From positions 1-32,731 of IMG/VR virus record IMGVR_UViG_3300021963_000418: a stretch of DNA of 32,731 nucleotides; one strand, given 5' to 3'. Every line of letters begins with the position of its first letter. Positions within the stretch are counted from its first letter, which is position 1. Of the stretch, positions 16,758 through 29,244 are shown piece after piece. The notes under the pieces were generated by a model that was given only the letters and a program-made list of their open reading frames with translations, did no database searches and was not told the DNA's origin. Source of the stretch: a virus. The translations under genes were made by a program, and so were the position numbers.

Positions 16758-16765
16758 TATTTATT
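16758..16765 (-). promoter_or_regulatory. Late-promoter-like element (AATAAATA) for the tape-measure-like gene
   Basis: The minus strand reads CAATAAATATAATTG, with the core 48 nt before the ATG at 16710. It lies within 20 nt of the plus-strand element, and the two point in opposite directions, so their transcripts would overlap. Confidence 0.5.
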
Positions 16766-16778
16766 GGATCTAAAAAAC

Positions 16779-17627
16779 ATGGAAAATACAAAACAAAACC
16801 CGCTGTCTAAATATTTTAGACAACCTGCCATTTACATGAAATTGCCGTCTAACGGGCAATATTGGGCTGAAGGTGCTGTGGAGTTACCTGTAACTGGTGA
16901 AATCCCTGTGTACCCAATGACTGCCAAAGACGAAGTTACCATTCGCACACCAGATGCGTTGATGAATGGAACCAGCGTTGTTACCATCATCGAAAGTTGC
17001 TGTCCCAGTATCAAAGATGCGTGGAAAATGCCCAGCGTTGATGTTGATGCAGTATTAATTGGTATACGCATTGCTAGCTACGGTGCAGCAATGAACATAG
17101 ATACAAAATGCCCACATTGCAGTGAGGAAAACGCACATGATATCAACCTAACAGGTGTGTTAGACGGTTTAGGTTGCCCGGACTATACGCAGAAGATCGA
17201 AGCACACGATTTGAAAATTAAAGTACGTCCACAAGAATTCTTTGAAGTTAACAAACGCAATGTGATTGCATTTGAAGAACAACGTTTAGTTGATGCACTT
17301 GGCAATTCGGCACTGAGTGCAGAAGATCGTACAACACAGATTGTAACCAGCATGGACAAGCTGGTTGAATTAGGTATTTCCACTGTGACACAAAGCACAG
17401 AATCCATTGAGCTTGCAGACGGAACATTGGTCACAGACACTGGGCATATCTCAGAATTCTATTCAAACACAGATGGTAATGTTGTACGACAAGTACAATC
17501 TCATCTAGCTAAAATGGCCAATGAGTACGCCATTAAACCACAGAAGGTATCCTGCAGTGAATGCCAGAAAACCTATGATGTTCCCTTAGAGTTCGATTAC
17601 GCAAATTTTTTCGCAGCCGGCTCCTGA
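16779..17627 (+). CDS. 26: Baseplate hub assembly chaperone, gp26-type, with zinc ribbon (282 aa)
   Basis: Resembles the T4-family baseplate protein group to which gp26 belongs. Visible features are KYFRQPAIYMKLPSNG near the N-terminus, IPVYPMTAKDEV, and two CxxC pairs, CPHC (residues 111-114) and CSEC (259-262), that could form one zinc ribbon. A TTG codon 15 nt upstream would add five residues, but the ATG is the more credible start. The C-terminus NFFAAGS follows directly on a slippery run of T at 17606-17612, where a -1 shift would replace the last four residues by the 76-codon frame leading into the next ORF. It is divergent from the tape-measure-like gene. I infer a role in assembling the hub and initiating the tail, as for lambda-type tail chaperones that also use a frameshift. 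Confidence 0.75.
   Translation: MENTKQNPLSKYFRQPAIYMKLPSNGQYWAEGAVELPVTGEIPVYPMTAKDEVTIRTPDALMNGTSVVTIIESCCPSIKDAWKMPSVDVDAVLIGIRIASYGAAMNIDTKCPHCSEENAHDINLTGVLDGLGCPDYTQKIEAHDLKIKVRPQEFFEVNKRNVIAFEEQRLVDALGNSALSAEDRTTQIVTSMDKLVELGISTVTQSTESIELADGTLVTDTGHISEFYSNTDGNVVRQVQSHLAKMANEYAIKPQKVSCSECQKTYDVPLEFDYANFFAAGS
17606..17612 (+). promoter_or_regulatory. Candidate -1 programmed frameshift site (T TTT TTC)
   Basis: Read in the frame of the gp26-type gene (GCA AAT TTT TTC GCA), the heptamer TTTTTTC fits the X XXY YYZ slippery rule, and the preceding A AAT TTT also fits. A -1 slip enters the frame of the 62-aa ORF, which is open from here and reads FFRSRLLTLDNDAIVEMIE. The zero-frame stop comes only 12 nt after the last Phe codon. 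The fusion would be about 354 aa. Confidence 0.7.
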
Positions 17628-18332: not shown

Positions 18333-18779
18333 TTAGGTATAGAGTTTAAAGAGATTGTTATAATGTAAGTGAAATTGTATAAAGTGTTTGTCAAAAAAAT
18401 CTATAGTAATAGTGCCGTTTTTGTCCCAGAACGTGGTGTTAATTGTGTTTGTGTCTTGATCAGTGTTATACGCACACAAATGGAACAGCTTTTCTGAATC
18501 CCAAATGATGCCACCAAATTTTAATTGTTTTAGTTGCACATATTTATTGTGTATAATCTCGTTTAGTGAATTTAATTTAGTGTCAGTGCCATAATTTTTA
18601 TTTGAAAGCTGTAGTGTAATTGTGTTTGGTAGTTCTATTTTTGTGTTTATTGAGATGGTCTCTGCGGTGTAATTTTTAATTTCTTTAATAATGGACTGTC
18701 TAGACTCAACAATGACATCCATTGTGCCGTTACAATGTCCAAAATCTAGCACTAATTCTAAATCAGTTAAAATGGACAT
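18333..18779 (-). CDS. Unknown beta-rich protein at the end of the radical SAM cassette (148 aa)
   Basis: I start it at the ATG at 18779 (MSILTDLELVLDFG), inside the end of the B12-type radical SAM gene. An in-frame start at 18809 would add ten residues but overlap more. Hydrophobic strands alternate with polar turns, for example NTITLQLSNKNYGTDTK and FWDKNGTITIDFFDKHFIQF. The NGT..I.F..P/K..-like ending is reminiscent of small carbohydrate-binding-like beta-sandwich proteins in large phages, but this is only an impression. No catalytic motif is seen. The overlap with the upstream gene implies translational coupling, so it may serve the same pathway. Confidence 0.6.
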   Translation of the reverse strand: MSILTDLELVLDFGHCNGTMDVIVESRQSIIKEIKNYTAETISINTKIELPNTITLQLSNKNYGTDTKLNSLNEIIHNKYVQLKQLKFGGIIWDSEKLFHLCAYNTDQDTNTINTTFWDKNGTITIDFFDKHFIQFHLHYNNLFKLYT

Positions 18780-20152
18780 ACAACGTTGAATCCGCACTCT
18801 TCGGTGCATATTGTTCTAAGTTCTTGAAAATATTCTTGTCTTTGTTCGGAAGTAATGTTTAACTGTTGATTAACCCAATGTACTCTATCTTCCTTGGTTT
18901 TTATCGGAGTCAGCGTCATATTCTTGCCGCTGTGTTCTATTTTTGTGCCAGGCAGAATTTCCAGTGGTGACAAAAATACTTCAATGACGCTGTTGTTTGC
19001 ATATTGCTTTCTATCCCTGAACCATTGCTTGGTAAATTCATAATCTTCTAAAGTTTCTGTTGGATATCCCACAATTAACAACAATGTTTGTGTAATCCCG
19101 TACTTTTGTCCCATCTCAAGATGATAATCTACATCCTCATTGCTAAAGGATTTGCCTAGTGCATGTCTAACATTGGGCACAACACTTTCTACCCCCATAA
19201 ACACACGACCATTGGTGTCTTGTATTTGTTGCCACACTAGTTCGGGGTGCTGACTTGCTTGACGTACAATAAATGAGCCTTCCCAACTTATCTGTTCACT
19301 GCGATATTTGCCTTGGTTATACACAGACATCAATGCTAATAATTTTTTAAACTCTTTGAGATTACCATTAGATATACTACTTCTAAAGTCGAAGTGCAAT
19401 ATGTCATGCTTTTTATATTGATGCATCATTTGCTCAAATATTTTCTCGGCAGTCATATATTGATACTTTTTCCAAAAAGCAACAACATCGCAAAATTCAC
19501 AATCACGCACACAGCCTTTACTGTCCATGATAGGAATACTAGGTTCTTTGTACCAAAACCAATTGTAGTCTGAATAGTCAGGGGCAGGTAAGTTATCTAA
19601 ATCTGCGACAGGAATCCATGTGTCAGAGTTGATGCCTGGGTAACTTAGGTTACCTTTGACATATTCAACAAACGATTCTTCTCCGTCCCCGGTGATGTAA
19701 TCGTCGATTAGCCCCAACTCAATCATCTTATCCCTGTATGAAATATCCGTTACGTTTGTTTTAACACCCGGACCACCGATTACAATACGACAGGTGGGAT
19801 TCTTGTGTCTAATTGATGCACATAACCATGCTGTAAAAATCTGACATTGGTAGCAGAACAAACTAAGTCCTATTATACTAGGATTGTGTGCTAGAATACG
19901 ATCGGTGCAATGCTCAATTATGCGCCCAACATCCTCAACAATGAGATCATCAACTTTTTGTTTATAGAAAAATTTAACAATTTTATCTTTGTGGTAGTGC
20001 CCCGACACCTTGGAAACTACTTCGGCGTTTAAATCAATGGTAATACTTGCAATCCCGTGTTTGGCCAACGCGGCTTTTAACACCGCTGGAGCTGCCATTG
20101 GACGATTAACATCCACGTACGGCACTGATGCAATTACTATTGTTTCTGCCAT
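18767..20152 (-). CDS. B12-binding-type radical SAM enzyme (461 aa)
   Basis: The N-terminal ~185 residues form a Rossmann-like cobalamin-binding-type domain: VPYVDVNRPMAAPAVLKAAL, then SIIGLSLFCYQCQIF, then RIVIGGPGVK, then DDYITGDGEESF. A classic DxHxxG cobalt-ligand motif is not visible, as in many enzymes of this class. The radical SAM domain follows, with the 4Fe-4S ligands in CVRDCEFC (C214, C218, C221), then HFDFRSSI, GVESVVPNVRHALGK and LLLIVGYPTET. Family members methylate or rearrange unactivated carbon centres; the substrate here is unknown. Its ATG abuts the stop of the GIY-YIG gene (TAAATG), so the two are coupled. No Shine-Dalgarno sequence is present. Confidence 0.85.
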   Translation of the reverse strand: MAETIVIASVPYVDVNRPMAAPAVLKAALAKHGIASITIDLNAEVVSKVSGHYHKDKIVKFFYKQKVDDLIVEDVGRIIEHCTDRILAHNPSIIGLSLFCYQCQIFTAWLCASIRHKNPTCRIVIGGPGVKTNVTDISYRDKMIELGLIDDYITGDGEESFVEYVKGNLSYPGINSDTWIPVADLDNLPAPDYSDYNWFWYKEPSIPIMDSKGCVRDCEFCDVVAFWKKYQYMTAEKIFEQMMHQYKKHDILHFDFRSSISNGNLKEFKKLLALMSVYNQGKYRSEQISWEGSFIVRQASQHPELVWQQIQDTNGRVFMGVESVVPNVRHALGKSFSNEDVDYHLEMGQKYGITQTLLLIVGYPTETLEDYEFTKQWFRDRKQYANNSVIEVFLSPLEILPGTKIEHSGKNMTLTPIKTKEDRVHWVNQQLNITSEQRQEYFQELRTICTEECGFNVVCPF

Positions 20153-20581
20153 TTAAATCTTGTTAATAATATGTGAACCGTGTACACGAACAGAGATCTG
20201 TCCGTTGTAATAATCTGTTGTCTCTAATACTTTTCTATCAAATTGTTCTCTAGCTTCGATGTAGCTACACTCTGCTTTTGATTTACAATAATGTAATATT
20301 TCACGAGTAAAATGGTCTTTGCCTAATTTTTCAATGTCTGCTGTTAAGTCTGTGCTTGACCCATAGTATTCTCGCCAGTCACTGTCAATTTTACTGCGAA
20401 TTTTCTTTTTCTTTTTTGTACCATTTTTTAGTTTAACTGTTTTTGTAGTAGTCTTAGCAAACTTGGCTAGTTTTTTACCTACATATTTTCTACCTGTTAA
20501 GGTATTAGTAATAAGGTATACAAAACCTACACAATTTTCTGGCAATTCATTGATAACGTTATTTCGATACATCCATGTCAT
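20153..20581 (-). CDS. GIY-YIG endonuclease-like protein (142 aa)
   Basis: The N-terminal GFVYLITNTLTGRKYVGKK (residues 18-36) matches the GIY-YIG signature, and REYYGSS, FTREILHYCKS and a downstream Glu (YIEAREQF) fit the rest of the catalytic fold. It resembles the free-standing Seg-like endonucleases and small GIY-YIG proteins of T4-like phages. A Lys-rich insert (KNGTKKKKKIRSK) could bind DNA. It lies 7 nt after one radical SAM gene and directly abuts the next, fully inside the cassette, so it may be a mobile element that moved in or a working member of the operon. Confidence 0.75.
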   Translation of the reverse strand: MTWMYRNNVINELPENCVGFVYLITNTLTGRKYVGKKLAKFAKTTTKTVKLKNGTKKKKKIRSKIDSDWREYYGSSTDLTADIEKLGKDHFTREILHYCKSKAECSYIEAREQFDRKVLETTDYYNGQISVRVHGSHIINKI

Positions 20582-20588
20582 TAAGTAG

Positions 20589-21824
20589 TTATCTGTTGCT
20601 GGTAGTAAAAAAATAATTTGCTATATCTACATCGTCGAACCAATTCCATTTTTCTAAACGATCGTACATTTTTTTAGTTAACTTATTATCTCCTGATTGT
20701 TTAAGTAAATTTATTACGTTACGCATTTCGTTGTCGGCGTGCAACTTTTGCAATTCTGGTTCTCGACCGTTACTAATAATTCCTGTACTGTTTGAAAACT
20801 CCCAATCTACGTTATCAAGCAATCTTTGTTTAACACCCCTTGGTAAATTTTGAACTTGAAATTCGGGCGGGTATTCTAAGGTGTTACTTAATATTCCGAG
20901 ATTGTTTTCTAATGCCCAGTTTAATGTATCTGCATAGGTATGAACACTTAATGCACTGATAACAGTACGTAATGTTACGTAATACCCCGGTCCTTGAAAC
21001 TGCTGAATCTTTTTAATGTTTTGGATCACAGTTTCTGTGACAGAGCCGGCACGTATGTAATTGTTTAATTTAGTAGTAGACTCTAAACTAATGCCAACAT
21101 CGACATGTCTAAATTCTTGTAGCTTTTTAAAAATTGATTCTTTATAAATGGTGCCATTGGTGCTAAAGCCAAAGTAGATGTTTGTTTTTCCTGCGGCAAT
21201 TAGACCGTCAATGAGTTCTTCAAATCTATAATTTAGAAATGGTTCGCCACCAATTACGTGTACAAACTGTAGATCGGTACTAGCAATCATAGTATCCATT
21301 AGGTGTTGCCACGCATCAACATTATCGGTCCAATTCATACGTACTGGACTATGTTTTTCCATAAATGCAATTTTGCTACTATAACTAGGTTCGCAGGTTC
21401 TACAGTATAAATTGCACTCGTTGCCTAGACTAAAGTGAAAGCTTCGAAGATTTAAATTGGCAATAGCCGGAGTTGATAACTGCGTATTGTCGCGACTATG
21501 TTTAAAAGTAAGGTCAAATTTCGTGTCGTGAATGTTACTTTTTAAATTCTCTCTAATTCGCTTACTACTACCCCCGCCGCCCTCGGCGGCATAACACGAC
21601 CCACAATGCGGATCTTTGACTCCGTTTAATTTATTGGTACGGTCGTTGACCATGTAACTATGTGACATCCACTCGGGAATAGACATAGTTTGTATATTAT
21701 AAACATTGGCTAGCTCGGTGTCACTGATCCAGTTTCTTTGCATGCCGCAGGTGTGATAACTACCATCAGCATTGATATGTACCTCAAACCACGGCACAGT
21801 ACAAAATGATTTATCTATTAACAT
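20589..21824 (-). CDS. Twitch/SPASM-type radical SAM protein (411 aa)
   Basis: The core motif CNLYCRTC (C137, C141, C144) binds the catalytic 4Fe-4S cluster, and IGGEPFLN (191-198) is the SAM-binding GGEP motif. An N-terminal Cys set (FCTVPWFE with C8, C26, and CGSC with C74 and C77) looks like an auxiliary-cluster (twitch/SPASM-like) domain placed in front of the radical SAM barrel, as in the 507-aa protein at 25778-27301. SPASM/twitch enzymes often modify peptides or proteins; the substrate here is unknown. The start overlaps the stop of the previous radical SAM gene by 7 nt. The end is 7 nt from the GIY-YIG gene. Confidence 0.85.
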   Translation of the reverse strand: MLIDKSFCTVPWFEVHINADGSYHTCGMQRNWISDTELANVYNIQTMSIPEWMSHSYMVNDRTNKLNGVKDPHCGSCYAAEGGGGSSKRIRENLKSNIHDTKFDLTFKHSRDNTQLSTPAIANLNLRSFHFSLGNECNLYCRTCEPSYSSKIAFMEKHSPVRMNWTDNVDAWQHLMDTMIASTDLQFVHVIGGEPFLNYRFEELIDGLIAAGKTNIYFGFSTNGTIYKESIFKKLQEFRHVDVGISLESTTKLNNYIRAGSVTETVIQNIKKIQQFQGPGYYVTLRTVISALSVHTYADTLNWALENNLGILSNTLEYPPEFQVQNLPRGVKQRLLDNVDWEFSNSTGIISNGREPELQKLHADNEMRNVINLLKQSGDNKLTKKMYDRLEKWNWFDDVDIANYFFTTSNR

Positions 21825-22804
21825 TCTCTACACTTTACTCTACACACTGGCAACGGGCCCGAACTGAATGTTCCGATTAGCTCGTCCCAACATGGATCTT
21901 CTAAGATCTCTTTTAAACTTCTAGTATGTATACTGATTCTATCTTGGTATTTTTTAACAAATAAATTCTTTTGATATCCAGTATTAAACCATCCGCATGG
22001 GTACACATATCCCTCTACCGTAACATTAATTTCTCTGTTACCATTAAGGCATTTTGCCCAAGCATGCTTGCCTTTTTCTAAATCATAGGTAAAAGGATCG
22101 TTGCGTCCAAATACCACTTGTCCATGATAGTGTGCGCTACTTTCTATATACGCAGGATTAACAGGCTTTAACGGGTCCGCACCATTAACAAGATATCGAT
22201 AATCGAACTTACTACTACGCACAGGTTGAAAGGTATCGCAACCCATAGCTCTGGCCTTGTTTGCTATTTCATGAATACGATCTTCGTTGAACTTAAAATA
22301 GATTGTACTCCAATTTATATAGCATTGACTGTGTTCACGTAGTATACGCATACCATCTATTATGCTGTCAAAGTCGCTGTTAACCCTGTACAAGTTATTG
22401 GACTCATTATCCCATCCATCGACGCTAAAAGTAACTCCGTCGTCTTCATTTAGTAGACATCCGAGCTCTTCCCAGAAGTATGCTTTCTTGTAGCTACCAT
22501 TAGTAATAATTCTAATGTTTGTTTTACTGTGAGCCTTAACGTATTCAATTATATGCAAAAAATCATTGGCATAAATGCTGTCACCGTGGTGGCCGCAAAA
22601 TAGCAAATACTTAATTTGATCTAATACTTCGGGAGTAAAAGTTTTTACAAATAAATCTAAATCAATTTCTTGGTTAAGGAAAGGCAATAACAACTCCGTT
22701 CTCGGACACCGTGGGCATTTAAGCACACATTTACTGCTAATCTCTACTTGTACAATGTCAAGATTAAACGATGTTGATATCGGTGTTGTAACTTGTAAAT
22801 CCAT
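21818..22804 (-). CDS. SPASM-type radical SAM protein (328 aa)
   Basis: The cluster motif CVLKCPRC (C26, C30, C33) lies close to the N-terminus, followed by LLFCGHHGDS in place of the usual GGEP, and TNGSY. C-terminal cysteines C252, C270 (YVYPCGWFN), C305, C321, C325 and C328 form a SPASM-like set; the protein ends PVCRVKCREC with Cys as the very last residue. The arrangement is the common one (barrel, then SPASM) and differs from the two twitch proteins nearby, so this is not a recent duplicate. The ATG lies 41 nt inside the 3' end of gp46, an unusually long overlap, with no later ATG before the motif. Confidence 0.85.
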   Translation of the reverse strand: MDLQVTTPISTSFNLDIVQVEISSKCVLKCPRCPRTELLLPFLNQEIDLDLFVKTFTPEVLDQIKYLLFCGHHGDSIYANDFLHIIEYVKAHSKTNIRIITNGSYKKAYFWEELGCLLNEDDGVTFSVDGWDNESNNLYRVNSDFDSIIDGMRILREHSQCYINWSTIYFKFNEDRIHEIANKARAMGCDTFQPVRSSKFDYRYLVNGADPLKPVNPAYIESSAHYHGQVVFGRNDPFTYDLEKGKHAWAKCLNGNREINVTVEGYVYPCGWFNTGYQKNLFVKKYQDRISIHTRSLKEILEDPCWDELIGTFSSGPLPVCRVKCREC

Positions 22805-24533
22805 TTTCTTTTACTACATGAAGTGTATTGTTAACACGACCTGCAAGTTCATCTTTGTGAGACACTAACCAAATACTCTTATTTGCATCTCGACTCATTT
22901 TCTTAAGAATGGCCAACGAATTTTCAACGCCGCTACTATCCATGCCGCTATCTATCAATTCGTCAATAAACAACAAGTTAATAGGTTGGTATAAACTTTC
23001 CCAAACATCACGGAATGCCCAGCTCAGGCTTAAAATAAGTCTGTTCCTCTCGCCACGCGACAGGTTATCAAAGTCTAAGTCTCTGCCTAGCTCAGTGATA
23101 CTCACGCTTAGATCGTTGTTAAACTTAATAGTATGTGGCAGACCAATTCGGTCTAAGTATTGCCCCAGCCGAGCGTTTAAGTAACTTAAATTTTGATCAA
23201 TAATTCGTTTGCGGATAAAACTATCTTTGTTTGTTAATAGTTTTAACAAGAACTCTTGATGCTCCTTGATATTAGTAAGGTCATTCATTACATCAAACTT
23301 AATTTCTTCTACGCCTTGTGTTTGCATTTCTGCAATTTGTTCTGCGTAAGGATCTGCTTCTTGTTCTTTAGCAGTTAGCTGTGTTAATACACTACTCATA
23401 CTACTGCGATGCTCAAATGCATCGCTTTCTCTGTCATAATAAACCTTAGGTGGCACACCCGGCAACCCTAATTCTGTTAACGCAGTTTTAAGTTCATTAA
23501 TTTGTAACTCAAACACCACTATATCTGCACTAACAGTTTCTAATTCTTTTAGCTTTTCGACTAATTGTTTTTCGTGATTAGCATCGTGCAACTCTCGCCC
23601 ACATGCATGGCATTTGTGTTCGTTTAGAGCAGAAACTTCATGCTCTAACTTAATACAAGTCTTACGCTCACGATCCTGATCCAATTCTGCACGTTTGAGT
23701 GCTTTAGTTAAGTCGTTAATATCCTTAACTTGTTGGTTGTAGTCACTTAGTAGTTTGTGTGCAAGTAACTCTGCTTCAATGTCCAATGCATTAAGTTCGT
23801 CGAATGCCGTTTGAAATCGAGCAACATCTTCTGTGTGTTTTGTTTTCCACAGAGTTTGTCTGCGTTTTAAATTATCAATCTGTTCTTCGATGCGCTTGTT
23901 TGCATCACCAACAGCTTTAATTCTATATTCCTCTTGCGTAATTGCATCCTTGGTGGCCTTGTTAAGTTCTTTTAACTTATCGGCTTTTTCACTAAGCATA
24001 GTAATGCCTAATAGTTGCTCAATGATAGTTCGTTGATCATTGGCCTTTAATGCTAAAAACGGTTCGGTGTAAGTATTAAGAGCTACAACGTGTTTGAACA
24101 TGTCGTGACTCATTCCCAACATACGTTCTATCTCTGCTTGTGTTTCGCGACTGTCCCCTTGGGCATCGTCAGTAATTTCTTTTTCACTGCCTGCTACCCA
24201 GAACTTCATGATACCAGGCTTTCGGCCACGTTCAATCCTATAGTCAATACCATCTTTTTCAAAGTCAATGGTAACCAATAGCCCTTTTGCGTTAGTCTTA
24301 TTAATAAGATTGTCTTTTTTAATGTTAGTTAACGCATTGCCGTACATAGCATAACTTAAAGCGTTAATGATAGTGGTTTTACCTGTACCGTTTCTTGCAC
24401 CACTATCGTCTCCGCCTAAGTCTAAGTTCTCGCCTAGTACCAGCGTAAGATCTCTTCGATCAAAGTCTACTGCCTGTGTAGCATTACCTACACTCATAAA
24501 GTTTTTAACCGTTAGTGTTTTAATTTTAAACAT
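22764..24533 (-). CDS. 46: Recombination nuclease ATPase subunit gp46 (Rad50/SbcC-like, 589 aa)
   Basis: With gp47 it makes the Rad50/Mre11-type complex that processes DNA ends for recombination-dependent replication and host DNA breakdown. Walker A is GARNGTGKTT (residues 45-54), the zinc hook is CHAC (C308, C311), the ABC signature is LSRGE (491-495), Walker B is LLFIDE (520-525), and the switch His is in WLVSHKDE (H559). Length is close to T4 gp46 (560 aa), with short coiled coils. The gene is separated from gp47 by a radical SAM gene and a PP-loop gene. It has no visible Shine-Dalgarno sequence, and a 7-bp hairpin lies about 30 nt upstream. Confidence 0.95.
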   Translation of the reverse strand: MFKIKTLTVKNFMSVGNATQAVDFDRRDLTLVLGENLDLGGDDSGARNGTGKTTIINALSYAMYGNALTNIKKDNLINKTNAKGLLVTIDFEKDGIDYRIERGRKPGIMKFWVAGSEKEITDDAQGDSRETQAEIERMLGMSHDMFKHVVALNTYTEPFLALKANDQRTIIEQLLGITMLSEKADKLKELNKATKDAITQEEYRIKAVGDANKRIEEQIDNLKRRQTLWKTKHTEDVARFQTAFDELNALDIEAELLAHKLLSDYNQQVKDINDLTKALKRAELDQDRERKTCIKLEHEVSALNEHKCHACGRELHDANHEKQLVEKLKELETVSADIVVFELQINELKTALTELGLPGVPPKVYYDRESDAFEHRSSMSSVLTQLTAKEQEADPYAEQIAEMQTQGVEEIKFDVMNDLTNIKEHQEFLLKLLTNKDSFIRKRIIDQNLSYLNARLGQYLDRIGLPHTIKFNNDLSVSITELGRDLDFDNLSRGERNRLILSLSWAFRDVWESLYQPINLLFIDELIDSGMDSSGVENSLAILKKMSRDANKSIWLVSHKDELAGRVNNTLHVVKENGFTSYNTDINIV

Positions 24534-24562
24534 TAGTCTATTGTAGATGAATGTAGTTAGAT

Positions 24563-24579
24563 AGTCAAATTATTTGACT
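24563..24579 (-). other. Hairpin in the leader between the PP-loop gene and gp46
   Basis: AGTCAAA and TTTGACT make a perfect 7-bp stem with a 3-nt loop, 30 nt before the gp46 ATG. There is no U-tract on the minus strand, so it is more likely an RNA-processing or translation-control hairpin than a terminator. Confidence 0.35.
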
Positions 24580-24597
24580 GTAATTTTAAAAAGTTTT

Positions 24598-25773
24598 TCA
24601 TTTTGCAAGCTCTCCAATTTTATAAAACGGTGTAACCATTCCCACAAGCCCGTCACTTTTGCCATTGTGATCCTTTAGTATATGCTTGGGATCTATGTTT
24701 TGTTCCATATAATCAATGCTGTATTGCCATGAGTTTAATACCTTAGAATCTACATTACTTTCTTCGTACATCCAATTATCTAGTTCGCACCATAATGTGC
24801 TAGATGGTTTCATGGCCTGGAATCGATCCTGTTGCCAGTAAGGATAAATGATACTACGAACCATAGACTCGTACTGATTACGCATTACATATGATTTAGA
24901 AGCATCCGGACTTACCATTAGTAGTAAATTTGGATTCTTCTTTATATGATTCATAATATGATGCGTCTGCACTTTAACAACCTCGGGCATGTCTGGCGTC
25001 CAGTAGAATAATTCCGATGCAGAAAATGAATCTTCGTAGTTATCAAATTGGATAACAATTCCCGCAACGCTGTCTAAATAAAATACAAAGAAGTTACCGT
25101 TGTGGCAACACATACGTGGTTTGTCAATGCCAAATAAATGACATCCGCGAATACCTTTATCGTGGAACATACGCTTGTATCGATCTAATGCAGTTTTCCA
25201 TCTTACAACGTGCGACGGGCTTAATTGTACCCCGAGTCCTTTTTGGAACCAAGGATCATTGTCAGACTCTGCAGACTTAAAGAAATCCATAGACTCTTCG
25301 GAAAAATCGTAAAACTCAATATGTATTTCTGGATGATACTGTGCAAGCCATTTAAGGTCTGGTGCCAAGGTCAAATCCCATTCGCTTAAATGATTATCCG
25401 CATTCACAACATTAGTTGGGGTGTAAATTGTTTGTGTGCGTTTTTCTGGCCAACGAACTAAAATTTCGTCTAGTTTAATATTGTTTTCTAAAAATGTGTG
25501 TAAAATATTATGACTGTCTGACCCGCCACTATAGTTTAATACAATATAATCATATTTTTCTCTGAGTTGCAATGCCCTACGTTTGTAGACTTCTTTTAAC
25601 CCTATTGATGGCGGTGTTAACCAATCAAATCTTCCAAATACATCATTATTAAAAACCCAGTCGCATGGCTTACCTGTAGCTTTAGATGCAATTAACGCAT
25701 CTACTTTATTAGAGTATGATTCCAACCCCACGCTGTAATAGCCAAATCTGTTTATAATTTTATTGTTTAACAT
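24598..25773 (-). CDS. PP-loop ATP pyrophosphatase-like protein (391 aa)
   Basis: The motif YIVLNYSGGSDSHNIL (SGGSDS at residues 82-87, counted from the ATG at 25773) is the pyrophosphate-binding loop of the adenine nucleotide alpha-hydrolase superfamily (QueC, TilS, ThiI, PAPS reductase, asparagine synthase and relatives). These enzymes adenylate a substrate and then add nitrogen or sulfur. No QueC-type zinc cysteine cluster is seen at the C-terminus. The remainder (about residues 90-391) is unrecognised, with aromatic-rich segments such as NNDPWFQKG and WYEE-like stretches. An in-frame TTG at 25797 would extend it into the previous gene; the ATG 4 nt after that gene's stop is preferred. It is sandwiched between a radical SAM gene and gp46. 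Confidence 0.7.
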   Translation of the reverse strand: MLNNKIINRFGYYSVGLESYSNKVDALIASKATGKPCDWVFNNDVFGRFDWLTPPSIGLKEVYKRRALQLREKYDYIVLNYSGGSDSHNILHTFLENNIKLDEILVRWPEKRTQTIYTPTNVVNADNHLSEWDLTLAPDLKWLAQYHPEIHIEFYDFSEESMDFFKSAESDNDPWFQKGLGVQLSPSHVVRWKTALDRYKRMFHDKGIRGCHLFGIDKPRMCCHNGNFFVFYLDSVAGIVIQFDNYEDSFSASELFYWTPDMPEVVKVQTHHIMNHIKKNPNLLLMVSPDASKSYVMRNQYESMVRSIIYPYWQQDRFQAMKPSSTLWCELDNWMYEESNVDSKVLNSWQYSIDYMEQNIDPKHILKDHNGKSDGLVGMVTPFYKIGELAK

Positions 25774-25777
25774 ATTT

Positions 25778-27301
25778 TTAATTGTATAAATCGGCAAACT
25801 GTGGGTAAGTTGTTAGAAATGATTCTTTGCGATGTGCGTCTTGCAATTTGGTAATTCGGTTAAATTCTGGCAATAGGTAACTAACATCCTTTGCATACAT
25901 AAACTCAATGACACTTTTCCAGTTTGCAATTAATTTGTCTGCCCCTTTGCATTGCAATATGTGTTGATTAATCAATTTAGCAATACGATCTTTATGATGT
26001 AACGGTAGTACTTGCAACGAGTGCATTTCTGGTGTATACATTAGCGAAACAGCAAAATTTTCTAACGGAACTTGGTTATTGGTGTGCCAGTGTACTTGCA
26101 AATCGATTAAACTTTCAACTGTTAATAGCCCAGCAGTTGAAGTAACTGTAAATTTTACATTAGGACACTTTTCTCTAACTAAATTTAAATTATTTTCTAT
26201 AATGTTCCATTTTGTACCGTGACGTGCGTATTCTAATTTCTCTCTAAATGCGTCAATGCTTGCGCCAACTGTAATATTTGAAAACTTTGTCCAAAGATCT
26301 AGTACACTTTTATGCTTAAACGACAAATTGGTAAAGTTAGTATTATAAATTATTTCTACATTGGTATTGCCGCACTCTATTAATTTGTCTAAAATCTGAT
26401 AATGTTCGGACATAATTAACGGTTCGCCACCTGCAAAATAAATTTTTTCAACAGAACTTATATATTGATTGCAAATATTTTCCAGTGCCTGTCTTTTTTG
26501 TGCAGTGGTTAATGTTTGGTAACCAGTTCCGAATAATTCAACTTCTTCTTGTGCAATGGCGCTACTATAATGACCACTACAATACCTACATTTTAGATTG
26601 CAAATATTATTAAGTCTGATATCTAAATATTTTGGAGAAAATTCTATAGTTCCGTCAGGAAGAGTAGAATCCACTAGACTTTTTAAATGATGCCATTCTT
26701 TATTTGATGTTTGTCTGTAGCTTTGTATATTGACAGATTCTGCAAGATAACATTGGCTACATTCTTTTGACCGGATACCCGATAACATATTTTTTCTGAT
26801 AGTTTTTGCGTTATCGTTGTTAATAATCTTTCTAATAGAATCAACATTTATACTACCTAGTGGAAATTCTTTATCACTCATGCAACAAGGCATGATATTG
26901 CTGTCGGGCCCTATGTATAAATGCATCCAAGGCAAAATACAAAAAGTGTCAGTGGGCTCGGGTATCTTGCGTAGAAATTCTTGCTCTACTAATACAAAAT
27001 CTATAGGCTCATCGCTGAGTTGTTGAAATTCTTGTTCAAATTTTTTATTTGATGTAACTACAGTAATAAAAAATTGTGGAATATCAATTTGTTTAATATA
27101 TTCAACAAATTTACTAAGTTGTGCACCGGGGGTATTTTGAAATTTGAACAAGTCTTGAAAATAATGAATTACAATCTTGTCTCTTATATCATATTTATCT
27201 TTACGCAATTCAAACAGAGATTTATACAATTCGCCGTCCGTGAGGTTAGACAAATCAAGTACTCCTAGTACGTTAGATTTGTCTAATAGGGCAAGTGTCA
27301 T
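25778..27301 (-). CDS. Twitch/SPASM-type radical SAM protein with extra N-terminal domain (507 aa)
   Basis: Residues 1-115 form an extra domain with alternating strands and helices (VLGVLDLSNL, KIVIHYFQDLF, QFFITVVTSN, IDFVLVEQEF), perhaps Rossmann- or flavodoxin-like. Then comes an auxiliary-cluster module, FCILPWMHLYI (C121), MPCCMSD (C139, C140) and CSQC (C181, C184), and then the radical SAM barrel with CNLKCRYC (C234, C238, C241) and AGGEPL (290-295). The order auxiliary module-barrel is the same as in the 411-aa protein, so the two are relatives. Its ATG overlaps the gp47 stop as ATGA, a typical coupling signal. The substrate is unknown. Confidence 0.85.
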   Translation of the reverse strand: MTLALLDKSNVLGVLDLSNLTDGELYKSLFELRKDKYDIRDKIVIHYFQDLFKFQNTPGAQLSKFVEYIKQIDIPQFFITVVTSNKKFEQEFQQLSDEPIDFVLVEQEFLRKIPEPTDTFCILPWMHLYIGPDSNIMPCCMSDKEFPLGSINVDSIRKIINNDNAKTIRKNMLSGIRSKECSQCYLAESVNIQSYRQTSNKEWHHLKSLVDSTLPDGTIEFSPKYLDIRLNNICNLKCRYCSGHYSSAIAQEEVELFGTGYQTLTTAQKRQALENICNQYISSVEKIYFAGGEPLIMSEHYQILDKLIECGNTNVEIIYNTNFTNLSFKHKSVLDLWTKFSNITVGASIDAFREKLEYARHGTKWNIIENNLNLVREKCPNVKFTVTSTAGLLTVESLIDLQVHWHTNNQVPLENFAVSLMYTPEMHSLQVLPLHHKDRIAKLINQHILQCKGADKLIANWKSVIEFMYAKDVSYLLPEFNRITKLQDAHRKESFLTTYPQFADLYN

Positions 27302-28314
27302 AAATTTCTATATATGTCTAACAATAAATTTGGGTTATATTGATTGCTGTCAATTGAACTCAGTTGGCTATGAACAATTTGATCAACACTCTCAAACTCG
27401 ATGTTGCCTTGAATTTCGTATTCTGTTAGTTCGGTTGTTTTTGCTGGAATTAATGTAATCTCTCGCAACTTGTACGTGTCAATGAATGTTTCTTTGATAA
27501 ACGTAGCTTCTTCGTAGCTAATGTCAATGTCAAGATTAACTCGTACATGCATATTAGGTTTAAGCATAGCATCGGTGTGCTTTAGTACATCACTAAGTTG
27601 GAACACACGATACATTGGTTGCCCAGGCCAAGAATGAAATTCCGGCTCTTTGCCCCAATCCAAGATCATTAGTCCACGATCGTCATCGCCGGCATCGGCA
27701 TAATTGTGCGGAAAACAATTACCGATGTATGTTACATTACGTTTAGTTTGACGTTTATGAAAGTGTCCGGTGAATACATGTTCAAATCCTTGTAATGAAT
27801 CTACACTCATTTCGCCGTGCTCCGGCATAGCCACCATGGCATTCATTAAATATCCAGGCAATTCAAAGTGCCCAAACATATATTTGCCTTTTAACTTAGC
27901 AAGACGTTTGTAATCATCCCCAACTAACCAAGGGGCAATAACTACATCGCTGTCGCTAAACCAATCGTTGCAAATCCTGACGTTTGGCAGATGCTTTGCC
28001 CACTCAACTGATTGTACGTCACGCTTATCTCTGTAATACAAATCGTGATTGCCGGGAATAAAAAATACTTGTTTAAAGTTATCGTTTAGGTGTTCTAGGG
28101 CACGTAGACTGTAGCCCAATGTTAAAATATTTATTGACGCACGATTATTATGCCAATCACCAAGGAAAAAGGCAGTTTCGCACCCCTCTTCTAATGCTTT
28201 AGATGTAGCCCATTTAACAAACAATAAACAGTCCTCGTTGTGCAACGTGCTGTTGGATTTTAGCCCAAAATGGATGTCTGTAAAAACGGCAGCTTTCTTA
28301 AATAAATTACTCAT
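27298..28314 (-). CDS. 47: Recombination nuclease subunit gp47 (Mre11/SbcD-like, 338 aa)
   Basis: Metal-dependent phosphoesterase partner of gp46. The five motifs are clear: FTDIHFG (D13, H15), LGDWHNN (D53, H55), PGNHD (N89, H90, D91), FGHFE (H149) and TGHFHK (H184, H186). Length equals that of T4 gp47 (339 aa). It lies 42 nt downstream of gp55 and overlaps the next radical SAM gene by 4 nt. It has no Shine-Dalgarno sequence. A TACAAT hexamer ends 5 nt before the ATG; if used as a -10 it would give a leaderless mRNA, but reading through from the gp55 promoter is simpler. Confidence 0.95.
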   Translation of the reverse strand: MSNLFKKAAVFTDIHFGLKSNSTLHNEDCLLFVKWATSKALEEGCETAFFLGDWHNNRASINILTLGYSLRALEHLNDNFKQVFFIPGNHDLYYRDKRDVQSVEWAKHLPNVRICNDWFSDSDVVIAPWLVGDDYKRLAKLKGKYMFGHFELPGYLMNAMVAMPEHGEMSVDSLQGFEHVFTGHFHKRQTKRNVTYIGNCFPHNYADAGDDDRGLMILDWGKEPEFHSWPGQPMYRVFQLSDVLKHTDAMLKPNMHVRVNLDIDISYEEATFIKETFIDTYKLREITLIPAKTTELTEYEIQGNIEFESVDQIVHSQLSSIDSNQYNPNLLLDIYRNL

Positions 28315-28356: not shown

Positions 28357-29244
28357 TTACTCATCTGAATCATATCCGCCGCCCCCGCCCCCGGAACTCA
28401 TTCCCTGTCTAGTGTAGCTAGGGTTTAACCCATTCATTTCTAAAATGTCATCACGCAAGTTTTGATTGCGTTTCTCGATGTTCAAGACACGAGTAAAGCT
28501 ATTAGTGATAGCGGCAGTATAATACGCAAAAGGGTTCTGCGATTTTGACTCGTCGAATTGCAGTCCAATTTGGCTGAGTTGTAGCAGGGCTTGTCCCCGC
28601 ATTTCTTCGTTGTAGGTGTATCCACGCCAGTTGCTCCTTGTTGCATATCGTTCACATAATTTAATAAACATGTGTGCTAGTTTTGCGGTCATTTTCCCGT
28701 GATCTTTGCTAAACACTCCATCTTCTAACTTACCTTTCCAGTGGCTACGGCCCACTATTACGGGTTCCCCGGCGTCACTGATTTTGTAGTGTACAAATGG
28801 TGGAAAGTTTACTTTAACATATTTTGTATTACCAATTAAGTCCAATTCTTCGTCATCGTACTCACTACGTGGAATTGCACCTTCTTCCTCTTCCATGGCT
28901 TTTACTGCGGCCTTGCGACTTTTAACATCATCAACAGGAACGTGATCCCAGGACATTACTCGGAACACAACGTCAGTGTCTTTGACATCTTTGAGTTTAA
29001 TTTCGAACTCTTCAAGTTTACGTTTAATACCAGTTTCTGCTAGTGCAGTATCTAATGCAAGTTTAGCCAATCGATCCGCGCGATTTTGTCGAGCTTCTTT
29101 GATGTTCTTTTTATTAATCTTACCTGCATCCGGTAAAATCATATCATAATCTGCATCAGCTAAGTCATTGAACGAACAATAAGTTGTTTTGCTCTTATGA
29201 ATTTCTTTTAAAATGTCTTTGTTGTTAAGATAATTATGGCGCAC
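28357..29244 (-). CDS. 55: Late-transcription sigma factor, gp55-type (295 aa)
   Basis: Directs host RNA polymerase to late promoters. Residues 185-280 contain the sigma-like core: LAHMFIKLCERYATRSNWRG, then YNEEMRGQALLQLSQIGLQF, then NPFAYYTAAITNSFTRVLN. This matches the T4 gp55 pattern (KNPFAYFTQI and neighbours). T4 gp55 is 185 aa; this longer form, with an N-terminus YLNNKDILKEIHKSKTTYC, is the cyanophage type as I know it. The tail is Gly-rich and ends in the acidic YDSDE, possibly the sliding-clamp contact known in T4. The start is GTG, supported by AAGGA 8 nt upstream. It leads the gp55-gp47-cassette-gp46 unit. Confidence 0.9.
   Translation of the reverse strand: MRHNYLNNKDILKEIHKSKTTYCSFNDLADADYDMILPDAGKINKKNIKEARQNRADRLAKLALDTALAETGIKRKLEEFEIKLKDVKDTDVVFRVMSWDHVPVDDVKSRKAAVKAMEEEEGAIPRSEYDDEELDLIGNTKYVKVNFPPFVHYKISDAGEPVIVGRSHWKGKLEDGVFSKDHGKMTAKLAHMFIKLCERYATRSNWRGYTYNEEMRGQALLQLSQIGLQFDESKSQNPFAYYTAAITNSFTRVLNIEKRNQNLRDDILEMNGLNPSYTRQGMSSGGGGGGYDSDE

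Follow-up and report, generated by a model that had tools for sequence, protein, structure and literature searches.

A cargo hotspot around gp46 and gp47 of large T4-like phages and a possible role of its radical SAM modules in glycan tailoring

The 32.7-kb virus record IMGVR_UViG_3300021963_000418 (positions 1 to 32,731, hereafter the window) contains a cargo hotspot of a lineage of large T4-like phages, in which cargo genes are inserted co-directionally between constant genes, among them those for the recombination endonuclease subunits gp47 and gp46. The cargo of the window forms four modules: an N-terminal-twitch radical S-adenosylmethionine (radical SAM) protein (Twi1); a PP-loop enzyme; a SPASM-type radical SAM protein with a second N-terminal-twitch protein (Twi2); and a B12-binding-type radical SAM enzyme with a small protein whose predicted fold resembles carbohydrate-binding modules (CBMs) of the CBM60 type. 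A preliminary description of the same DNA had regarded these genes as one cassette for a multi-step pathway. It is quite possible, although we would stop short of calling it probable, that the radical SAM modules are instead interchangeable enzymes that tailor sugars or glycans.

A cargo hotspot between constant genes

Relatives were collected by a viral-contig search with gp46, which yielded 80, and by further searches with the PP-loop, B12-type and twitch proteins (loci and contigs are designated by L numbers). The comparison set consists of 104 non-redundant gp46 loci, mostly metagenome fragments, in which open reading frames (ORFs) were called by simple rules and neighbouring genes were assigned to families with profiles built in this analysis. 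A backbone of sigma55, gp47, gp46, a GIY-YIG gene and a baseplate hub gene is constant in these loci, and the intervals between these genes are variable and often empty. Among observable cases, the interval is empty between sigma and gp47 (A) in 51 of 69, between gp47 and gp46 (B) in 30 of 84, between gp46 and the GIY-YIG gene (C) in 31 of 88, and between the GIY-YIG and hub genes (D) in 40 of 53. Radical SAM genes are present in 5, 18, 45 and 3 of these same A, B, C and D intervals, respectively. Other cargo at the locus includes an AMP-binding enzyme, TctC, an SDR-like protein and, as read by eye from the sequence, SGNH-like proteins.

The closest cultured match to the gp46 of the window is found in Pseudomonas phage PA5oct and its kin (50% identity), followed by Sinorhizobium phage Phosso and Agrobacterium phage Atu_ph07, all of which are large T4-like phages. 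The window and PA5oct have in common a gene order that runs from a baseplate gene through a structural protein, the late sigma factor, gp47 and gp46 to the baseplate hub and the portal. Nothing lies between gp47 and gp46 in PA5oct, which also has no radical SAM match genome-wide, and no radical SAM gene is annotated at the locus in any of PA5oct, Atu_ph07 and Phosso.

Comparative gene order rules out a single conserved cassette. Among the 44 loci that are complete from gp47 to the hub gene, 20 have no radical SAM gene, 13 have one, 5 have two, 4 have three and only 2, including the window, have four. The expectation that the set would co-occur beside gp46 and gp47 was not borne out, since its genes occur largely singly and scattered, with a PP-loop gene at the hotspot only in the window, L002 and L003. 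One multi-step pathway built from all genes of the window is therefore very improbable. What speaks for it is that the genes are co-directional with tight junctions, and that L003 retains most of the set, holding the PP-loop, SPASM-type, Twi2, B12-type and small-protein genes together at 62–83% identity. However, L003 lacks Twi1 and has TctC in its stead, the full set is possible in near-identical contigs only, and most relatives retain no more than one of the genes. Of the proposed joint action, two smaller linked units survive, namely the B12-type enzyme with the small protein and the SPASM-type protein with Twi2.

The GIY-YIG protein, which the preliminary description counted as a cassette member, is of the SegE type and scores far above the PF19835 cut-off of 25 bits. 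Of the 60 relatives in which its gene could be observed, 53 have it in the stretch from gp46 to the hub gene; it belongs to the backbone of the locus and lies outside any pathway. The phrog_447 label "NAD synthetase" for the same protein was judged to be a PHROGs mislabel, given the PF19835 match.

The ratio of nonsynonymous to synonymous divergence (dN/dS) against the near-identical contigs L002 and L125 is 0.02–0.10 for every gene except Twi1, which indicates purifying selection and argues that the open frames are not due to chance. Synonymous divergence from the nearest contigs jumps between adjacent genes of the window, with values of 0.007 for Twi1, 0.755 for the PP-loop gene, 0.048 for gp46 and 0.17 for Twi2. 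Separate exchange of pieces would be expected to give such jumps; as both near-identical contigs are fragments, the pattern is indicative only. Twi1 itself shows 11 nonsynonymous and 2 synonymous differences between the window and L002, at the low dS given above and next to the high dS of the adjacent PP-loop gene, which points to recent recombination and possibly to altered selection on Twi1.

The modules of the window

ORF analysis places the cassette genes on the minus strand, where they had been described (Table 1), and motifs and family scores agree that the named enzyme classes are intact and threaded through the gp47–gp46 region. The junctions had been described as overlapping or near-abutting, which the coordinates bear out with overlaps of 43, 7, 41, 20 and 4 nt and junctions of 0 and 7 nt, but two of the starts are probably too far upstream. 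These were judged from poorly ordered N-termini in the predicted models. For the PP-loop protein, Met9 is the most likely start, because residues 1–13 are largely disordered in its model, in which case the overlap with Twi1 disappears. The small protein probably starts at Met11, which would cut its overlap with the B12-type gene to 13 nt. A gap of 64 nt separates gp46 from the PP-loop ORF. A scan for promoters and terminators gave promoter-like sites no more often than shuffled sequences.

Table 1. Genes of the hotspot in the window, from the baseplate hub gene to the late sigma factor gene
Feature	Positions	Strand	Remarks
Baseplate hub protein (hotspot edge, backbone)	16764..17627	+	phrog_150, 77 bits
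Small all-beta protein, 158 aa as called	18333..18809	-	Probable start 18779 (148 aa); CBM60/CBM36-like predicted fold
B12-binding-type radical SAM enzyme	18767..20152	-	Putative cobalamin-dependent C- or P-methyltransferase; PF04055, 39.0 bits
SegE-type GIY-YIG endonuclease-like protein (backbone)	20153..20581	-	PF19835, 117 bits
Twi2, N-terminal-twitch radical SAM protein	20589..21824	-	NF033640, 231 bits
SPASM/twitch-like radical SAM protein, directly behind gp46	21818..22804	-	CX3CX2C and four conserved C-terminal Cys
gp46, recombination endonuclease subunit (backbone)	22764..24533	-	phrog_77, 340 bits
PP-loop ATPase family protein	24598..25797	-	SGGSDS motif; probable start 25773
Twi1, N-terminal-twitch radical SAM protein, flanked by gp47 and the PP-loop gene	25778..27301	-	NF033640, 367 bits
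gp47, recombination endonuclease subunit (backbone)	27298..28314	-	phrog_100, 203 bits
Late-transcription sigma factor, gp55 type (hotspot edge, backbone)	28357..29244	-	phrog_12791, 267 bits

The radical SAM motif CX3CX2C is located at residue 234 in Twi1, 137 in Twi2, 26 in the SPASM-type protein and 214 in the B12-type enzyme, and the SGGSDS motif at residue 90 of the PP-loop protein. Alignments show that these catalytic motifs are intact in the window and kept in relatives; loss of catalytic residues, which would have spoken against a pathway, is not seen among the relatives, and this favours function. Twi1, Twi2 and the B12-type enzyme exceed the PF04055 cut-off of 29.5 bits (47.1, 51.8 and 39.0 bits), and the SPASM-type protein falls slightly under it at 28.7 bits while possessing the motif and a conserved family alignment.

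The B12-type enzyme and the small protein form a recurrent pair. The former resembles cobalamin-dependent methyltransferases at a distance and is a putative member of that group: its best NCBIfam model is TIGR03975, a C-methyltransferase of ribosomally synthesized and post-translationally modified peptides (RiPPs), at 60.1 bits against a cut-off of 281.85, and its PF02310 match (24.6 bits, below the cut-off of 32.1) is placed correctly before the radical SAM core. The small-protein family is diverse, with 86 members in the loci then collected. Among the 106 B12-type genes that exceed 300 aa, 69 adjoin a small-protein gene, which lies downstream in 65 and upstream in 4 and mostly overlaps by up to 62 nt; when the cases are grouped at 70% identity, 43 of 74 clusters show the pairing. 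In the count used for a shuffling test, 70 of 107 cases were adjacent; with the genes permuted within their loci, the average was 11 and the highest value 21. Relatives of the B12-type enzyme were found in bacteria when a single genome was searched for each species, and the small partner in one contig only, a 7.9-kb piece of a Rickettsiales metagenome-assembled genome (MAG). With the partner nearly absent from bacteria, the pair looks phage-specific.

The AlphaFold2 model of the small protein, built with 40 relatives, is a confident beta-sandwich (predicted local distance difference test score, pLDDT, 92.7). The only Foldseek matches in the PDB at E ≤ 0.001 are 2xhh (1.9e-4) and 2xfd (6.8e-4), which are calcium-dependent carbohydrate-binding modules of the CBM60/CBM36 type. 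By sequence, the protein of the window has no match to Pfam CBM60 and no significant relative in the PDB, and among predicted viral proteins its good matches are all to uncharacterised phage proteins. The B12-type enzymes of L171, L172, L192, L203 and L204 have no CBM-like partner and are followed by a protein of 190–213 aa with, by eye, the look of a 2-oxoglutarate oxygenase; the L192 copy has no Pfam match.

This pair also bears on the possibility that proteins or peptides are the targets, with the B12-type enzyme C-methylating its partner of about 150 residues and the twitch and SPASM-type enzymes modifying other phage or host peptides in a RiPP-like manner. The close co-encoding of the pair, with its frequent overlap, and the RiPP identity of the best NCBIfam model would fit, despite the low score, and peptides are common substrates of SPASM and twitch enzymes. 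We nevertheless consider peptide modification rather unlikely. The partner has a compact, confident fold without a leader–core layout, has no invariant candidate target residue besides an NG motif, and also occurs without the B12-type enzyme. Among the recurring neighbours no RiPP precursor or transporter was recognised, whereas glycosyltransferase-like and carbamoyltransferase genes were. Known RiPP maturase families were rejected as assignments, their NCBIfam scores being far under the cut-offs.

The enzymes had been introduced as four dissimilar radical SAM proteins, and four are indeed present, but Twi1 and Twi2 share one subfamily, both exceeding the cut-off (170 bits) of NCBIfam NF033640 (N_Twi_rSAM). 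The cysteines of an N-terminal cluster and those of CX3CX2C are kept among their relatives, the conserved cysteines of Twi2 being residues 8, 26, 74, 77, 137, 141 and 144. The SPASM-type label is likewise correct in part: the protein is a radical SAM enzyme with C-terminal cysteines, but these number four (252, 270, 321 and 325), not the seven required for two clusters, and PF13186 reaches 19.7 bits against a cut-off of 21.5. The protein appears to be twitch-like, the four cysteines fitting one auxiliary cluster. SPASM-type genes occupy interval C in 41 of 88 relatives, often singly. The pair that it forms with Twi2 begins within the 3' end of gp46 and is also found in L003, L010, L014, L032 and L048; a small CBM-like protein comes after it in two of these, L010 and L048. 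Orthologues of Twi1 with 45–48% identity occupy the same gp47–gp46 slot in L205–L208 and L210, two of which have an SGNH-like gene in place of the PP-loop gene.

For the PP-loop protein, no Pfam family above cut-off, no significant PDB relative by sequence and no direct relative in 50,697 cultured-phage records were found. Its family comprises 60 members in 45 loci and keeps the motifs SGG[SA]DS and GxDKP; S90, G91, G92, D94 and S95 are nearly invariant in 42 sequences. The AlphaFold2 model (pLDDT 89.4) matches carbapenam synthetase, LarE, TilS and GMP synthetase weakly, none with E ≤ 0.001 and all with template modelling (TM) scores below 0.4. A regular neighbour is a TctC-type periplasmic receptor, encoded within three genes of the PP-loop gene in 32 of the 45 loci; counted by member, the association holds for 41 of 60, against a mean of 14 after shuffling, and the background in loci retrieved by other queries is 9 TctC genes out of 3853. 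TctA and DctP also adjoin PP-loop relatives. In L003, the closest PP-loop-bearing relative, TctC lies directly downstream (PF03401, 95 bits). Full-length TctC proteins beside phage PP-loop genes (L003:2558-3514, L005 and L091–L119) have kept the hydrophobic N-terminus in 41 of 45 cases.

The company of TctC, TctA and DctP points to carboxylate nutrition, and this link is best fitted by a reading without a common pathway, in which the modules are independent auxiliary metabolic genes (for nutrient uptake, cofactor or lipid chemistry) tolerated between essential genes. Modules do vary independently among relatives, and adjacent genes that differ strongly in dS seem to have been exchanged separately. 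As an account of the whole hotspot we find such independence improbable, because the B12-type gene with the small gene and the SPASM-type gene with Twi2 are strongly linked, L003 keeps five genes together, and the same enzyme classes cluster in Bdellovibrionia, as described below.

Twitch arrays, sugar genes and the glycan reading

Radical SAM genes are numerous in large environmental relatives of the window, with 8–20 per genome in 14 records of more than 130 kb, compared with 0 in PA5oct and 4 each in Atu_ph07 and Phosso. N-twitch matches make up the majority of these genes and number 2–21 in each environmental record; no NF033640 match above cut-off occurs in 14 control bacteria. The genes lie in tandem arrays of three to seven. 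A widespread operon (L213–L282 and L370) combines a glycogenin-like gene, a DGDN-motif gene, three to seven N-twitch genes, two families of about 360 aa, an SGNH-like gene and an O-carbamoyltransferase gene. In the 64 loci with at least three arrayed twitch genes, a DGDN-motif protein is found in 42, a glycogenin-like protein in 25, a carbamoyltransferase in 25, an SGNH-like protein in 26 and two further protein families in 34 each; because a twitch query had been used to retrieve the loci, finding twitch genes in them is expected, but their neighbours are independent.

Matches of the glycogenin-like profile include solved glycogenins (E 7e-6) and Pfam Mannosyl_trans3, and the assignment of the carbamoyltransferase is clear (PF02543/PF16861). 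Of 17 environmental records, 15 contain the carbamoyltransferase gene, whose coordinates lie within about 5 kb of a twitch array in 12 records; none of the 3 cultured outgroups has it. In the 354-kb relative behind L012, which shares the gp46 locus, the complete operon is found at another place (L370). Relatives of the SPASM-type protein keep similar company: in Pelagibacter phage Mosig they adjoin an ArnB-like aminotransferase and a carbamoyltransferase, and in Campylobacter phage CP220 an amidinotransferase and two nucleotide-diphospho-sugar transferase-like proteins. The isolated Vibrio phage K566 (L363, 152844–177791) has a small N-twitch array together with a PagP-like gene.

Outside phages, Bdellovibrionia MAGs (L284, L285 and L286) have 22–37 N-twitch matches per genome in dense arrays with SPASM and B12 types, accompanied by PP-loop-like proteins of another family with SGGLDS motifs read by eye; no phage backbone gene was found in the stretches examined. 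Given this clustering, enzymes of these classes may well cooperate.

The glycan reading is based on the CBM-like fold of the partner protein and on the genes that accompany these enzyme families in relatives, which encode glycosyltransferases, carbamoyltransferases and sugar-nucleotide enzymes; the chemistry throughout, the glycan target and a joint action of modules in one pathway are what we infer. The radical SAM modules would tailor a sugar or glycan made or altered by the phage, for which the virion, the host surface and glycosylated DNA are candidate targets. Oxidation, epimerisation or deoxygenation at sugar carbons would be the task of the twitch and SPASM-type enzymes, and methylation of an unactivated carbon that of the B12-type enzyme; the CBM-like protein could hold the glycan or recruit the B12-type enzyme. 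Amidation or thiolation may be prepared by the PP-loop enzyme, which would use ATP to activate a carboxylate or carbonyl and could draw on carboxylates imported by TctC/DctP receptors in relatives. The more far-reaching proposal, that a widespread lineage of giant T4-like phages has its own modular glycan-tailoring chemistry, consisting of the operon and plug-ins such as the B12 methyltransferase with its CBM60-like partner, and builds a hypermodified sugar on the virion, DNA or host surface, is a doubtful though definite candidate.

Several observations weigh against glycan tailoring. No glycosyltransferase or sugar-nucleotide gene lies within the 32.7-kb window, which is part of a genome only, and the twitch arrays, found by a twitch query, hold subclades other than those of Twi1 and Twi2. 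The likeness to CBM60 is one of fold only (TM 0.5–0.68), with a single one of 40 small-protein family members reaching Pfam CBM60 (E 0.0068). Twitch and SPASM enzymes act on peptides too. Genes of the AMP-ligase, TctC and SDR-like types are among the cargo of this locus too, and for these a glycan link is not required. Of the arrays' neighbours, only the glycogenin-like protein was confirmed as a glycosyltransferase, the DGDN-motif and TEKIxKPI proteins not being confirmed as such.

Glycosylated DNA as a target leads over to a further alternative, in which the modules would hypermodify DNA or nucleotides so that host restriction is evaded; the bases that the radical SAM enzymes tailor might also be glycosylated ones. 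Radical SAM and PP-loop enzymes take part in the phage pathways for 7-deazaguanine and thymine hypermodification, DNA glycosylation is known from T4-like phages, and the diversity of the cargo resembles an arms race. We rate DNA modification as unlikely all the same. The QueE/QueC pathway to 7-deazaguanine was rejected because scores are far under the cut-offs: no QueE- or QueC-type match was found, Twi1 reaching 25.7 bits against 260 for TIGR03963 (QueE type), and the PP-loop protein matches neither QueC nor another family. A thymidylate-synthase-type gene occurs in only 5 of 17 environmental records. The family PF18724, which stands for thymine hypermodification, had no match in 20 records, but the control was silent as well, so this point is weak.

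Known systems and significance

Swappable radical SAM modules in phages are already known. Interchangeable radical SAM clusters were reported in 2010 for the T4-like phages CP220 and CPt10 (PMC2853527), followed in 2017 by an ocean genome of the T4-like type that holds 12 radical SAM genes (PMC5332604). The statement of the preliminary description that no phage pathway of this composition had been described is thus close to right, apart from these two reports. We found no prior account of the B12/CBM-like pair or of the operon of glycosyltransferase, N-twitch and carbamoyltransferase genes, nor of a phage pathway combining a PP-loop enzyme or a carbamoyltransferase with radical SAM enzymes, in a literature search that most subscription journals and preprints lay outside.

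Like the lineage of the window, CP220 and CPt10 are T4-like and have 11–12 radical SAM genes, of which a five-gene cluster is exchanged en bloc between close relatives (PMC2853527). The sugar-nucleotide transferase-like neighbours are a further likeness, and one of the enzymes is distantly related to the SPASM-type protein of the window (27% identity over 195 residues). In contrast, the stretch of CP220 examined has an amidinotransferase beside the cluster and no B12-type enzyme or CBM-like partner, and the cluster in that stretch is not placed around gp46/gp47. The cargo of the hotspot also varies at constant sites in 104 loci, but is not exchanged as a single block. The genome reported in 2017 is a further natural example of a radical-SAM-rich T4-like phage, whose genes, in the part of the account available to us, are read as iron-sulfur cargo with no glycan pathway proposed (PMC5332604).

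Likeness to individual enzyme families is closest for Twi1 and Twi2, which belong to NF033640, a family with no reaction assigned; the two members in the window are singletons outside the glycosyltransferase/carbamoyltransferase array. The B12-type enzyme shares the arrangement of a B12-binding-like N-terminal domain before a CX3CX2C radical SAM core with cobalamin-dependent radical SAM methyltransferases (TIGR03975, the PhpK P-methyltransferases, TsrM and OxsB), but remains far under every equivalog cut-off. To our knowledge, none of these types has a small co-encoded CBM60-like partner. The 158-aa protein, for which CBM60/CBM36 modules are the best matches of solved structure, differs from them in being free-standing and phage-encoded, with no attached enzyme domain and no significant family-level sequence match.

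The two-gene module of B12-type enzyme and CBM-like protein offers a simple entry point for expression and assay, and K566, an isolated phage with a small twitch array, a tractable system for functional tests. If the glycan reading is true, phages of this group would represent a large store of radical SAM chemistry, with up to about 20 genes per genome, the orphan family NF033640 would gain its first functional context, and the radical SAM clusters known in Campylobacter phages since 2010 would become easier to explain.

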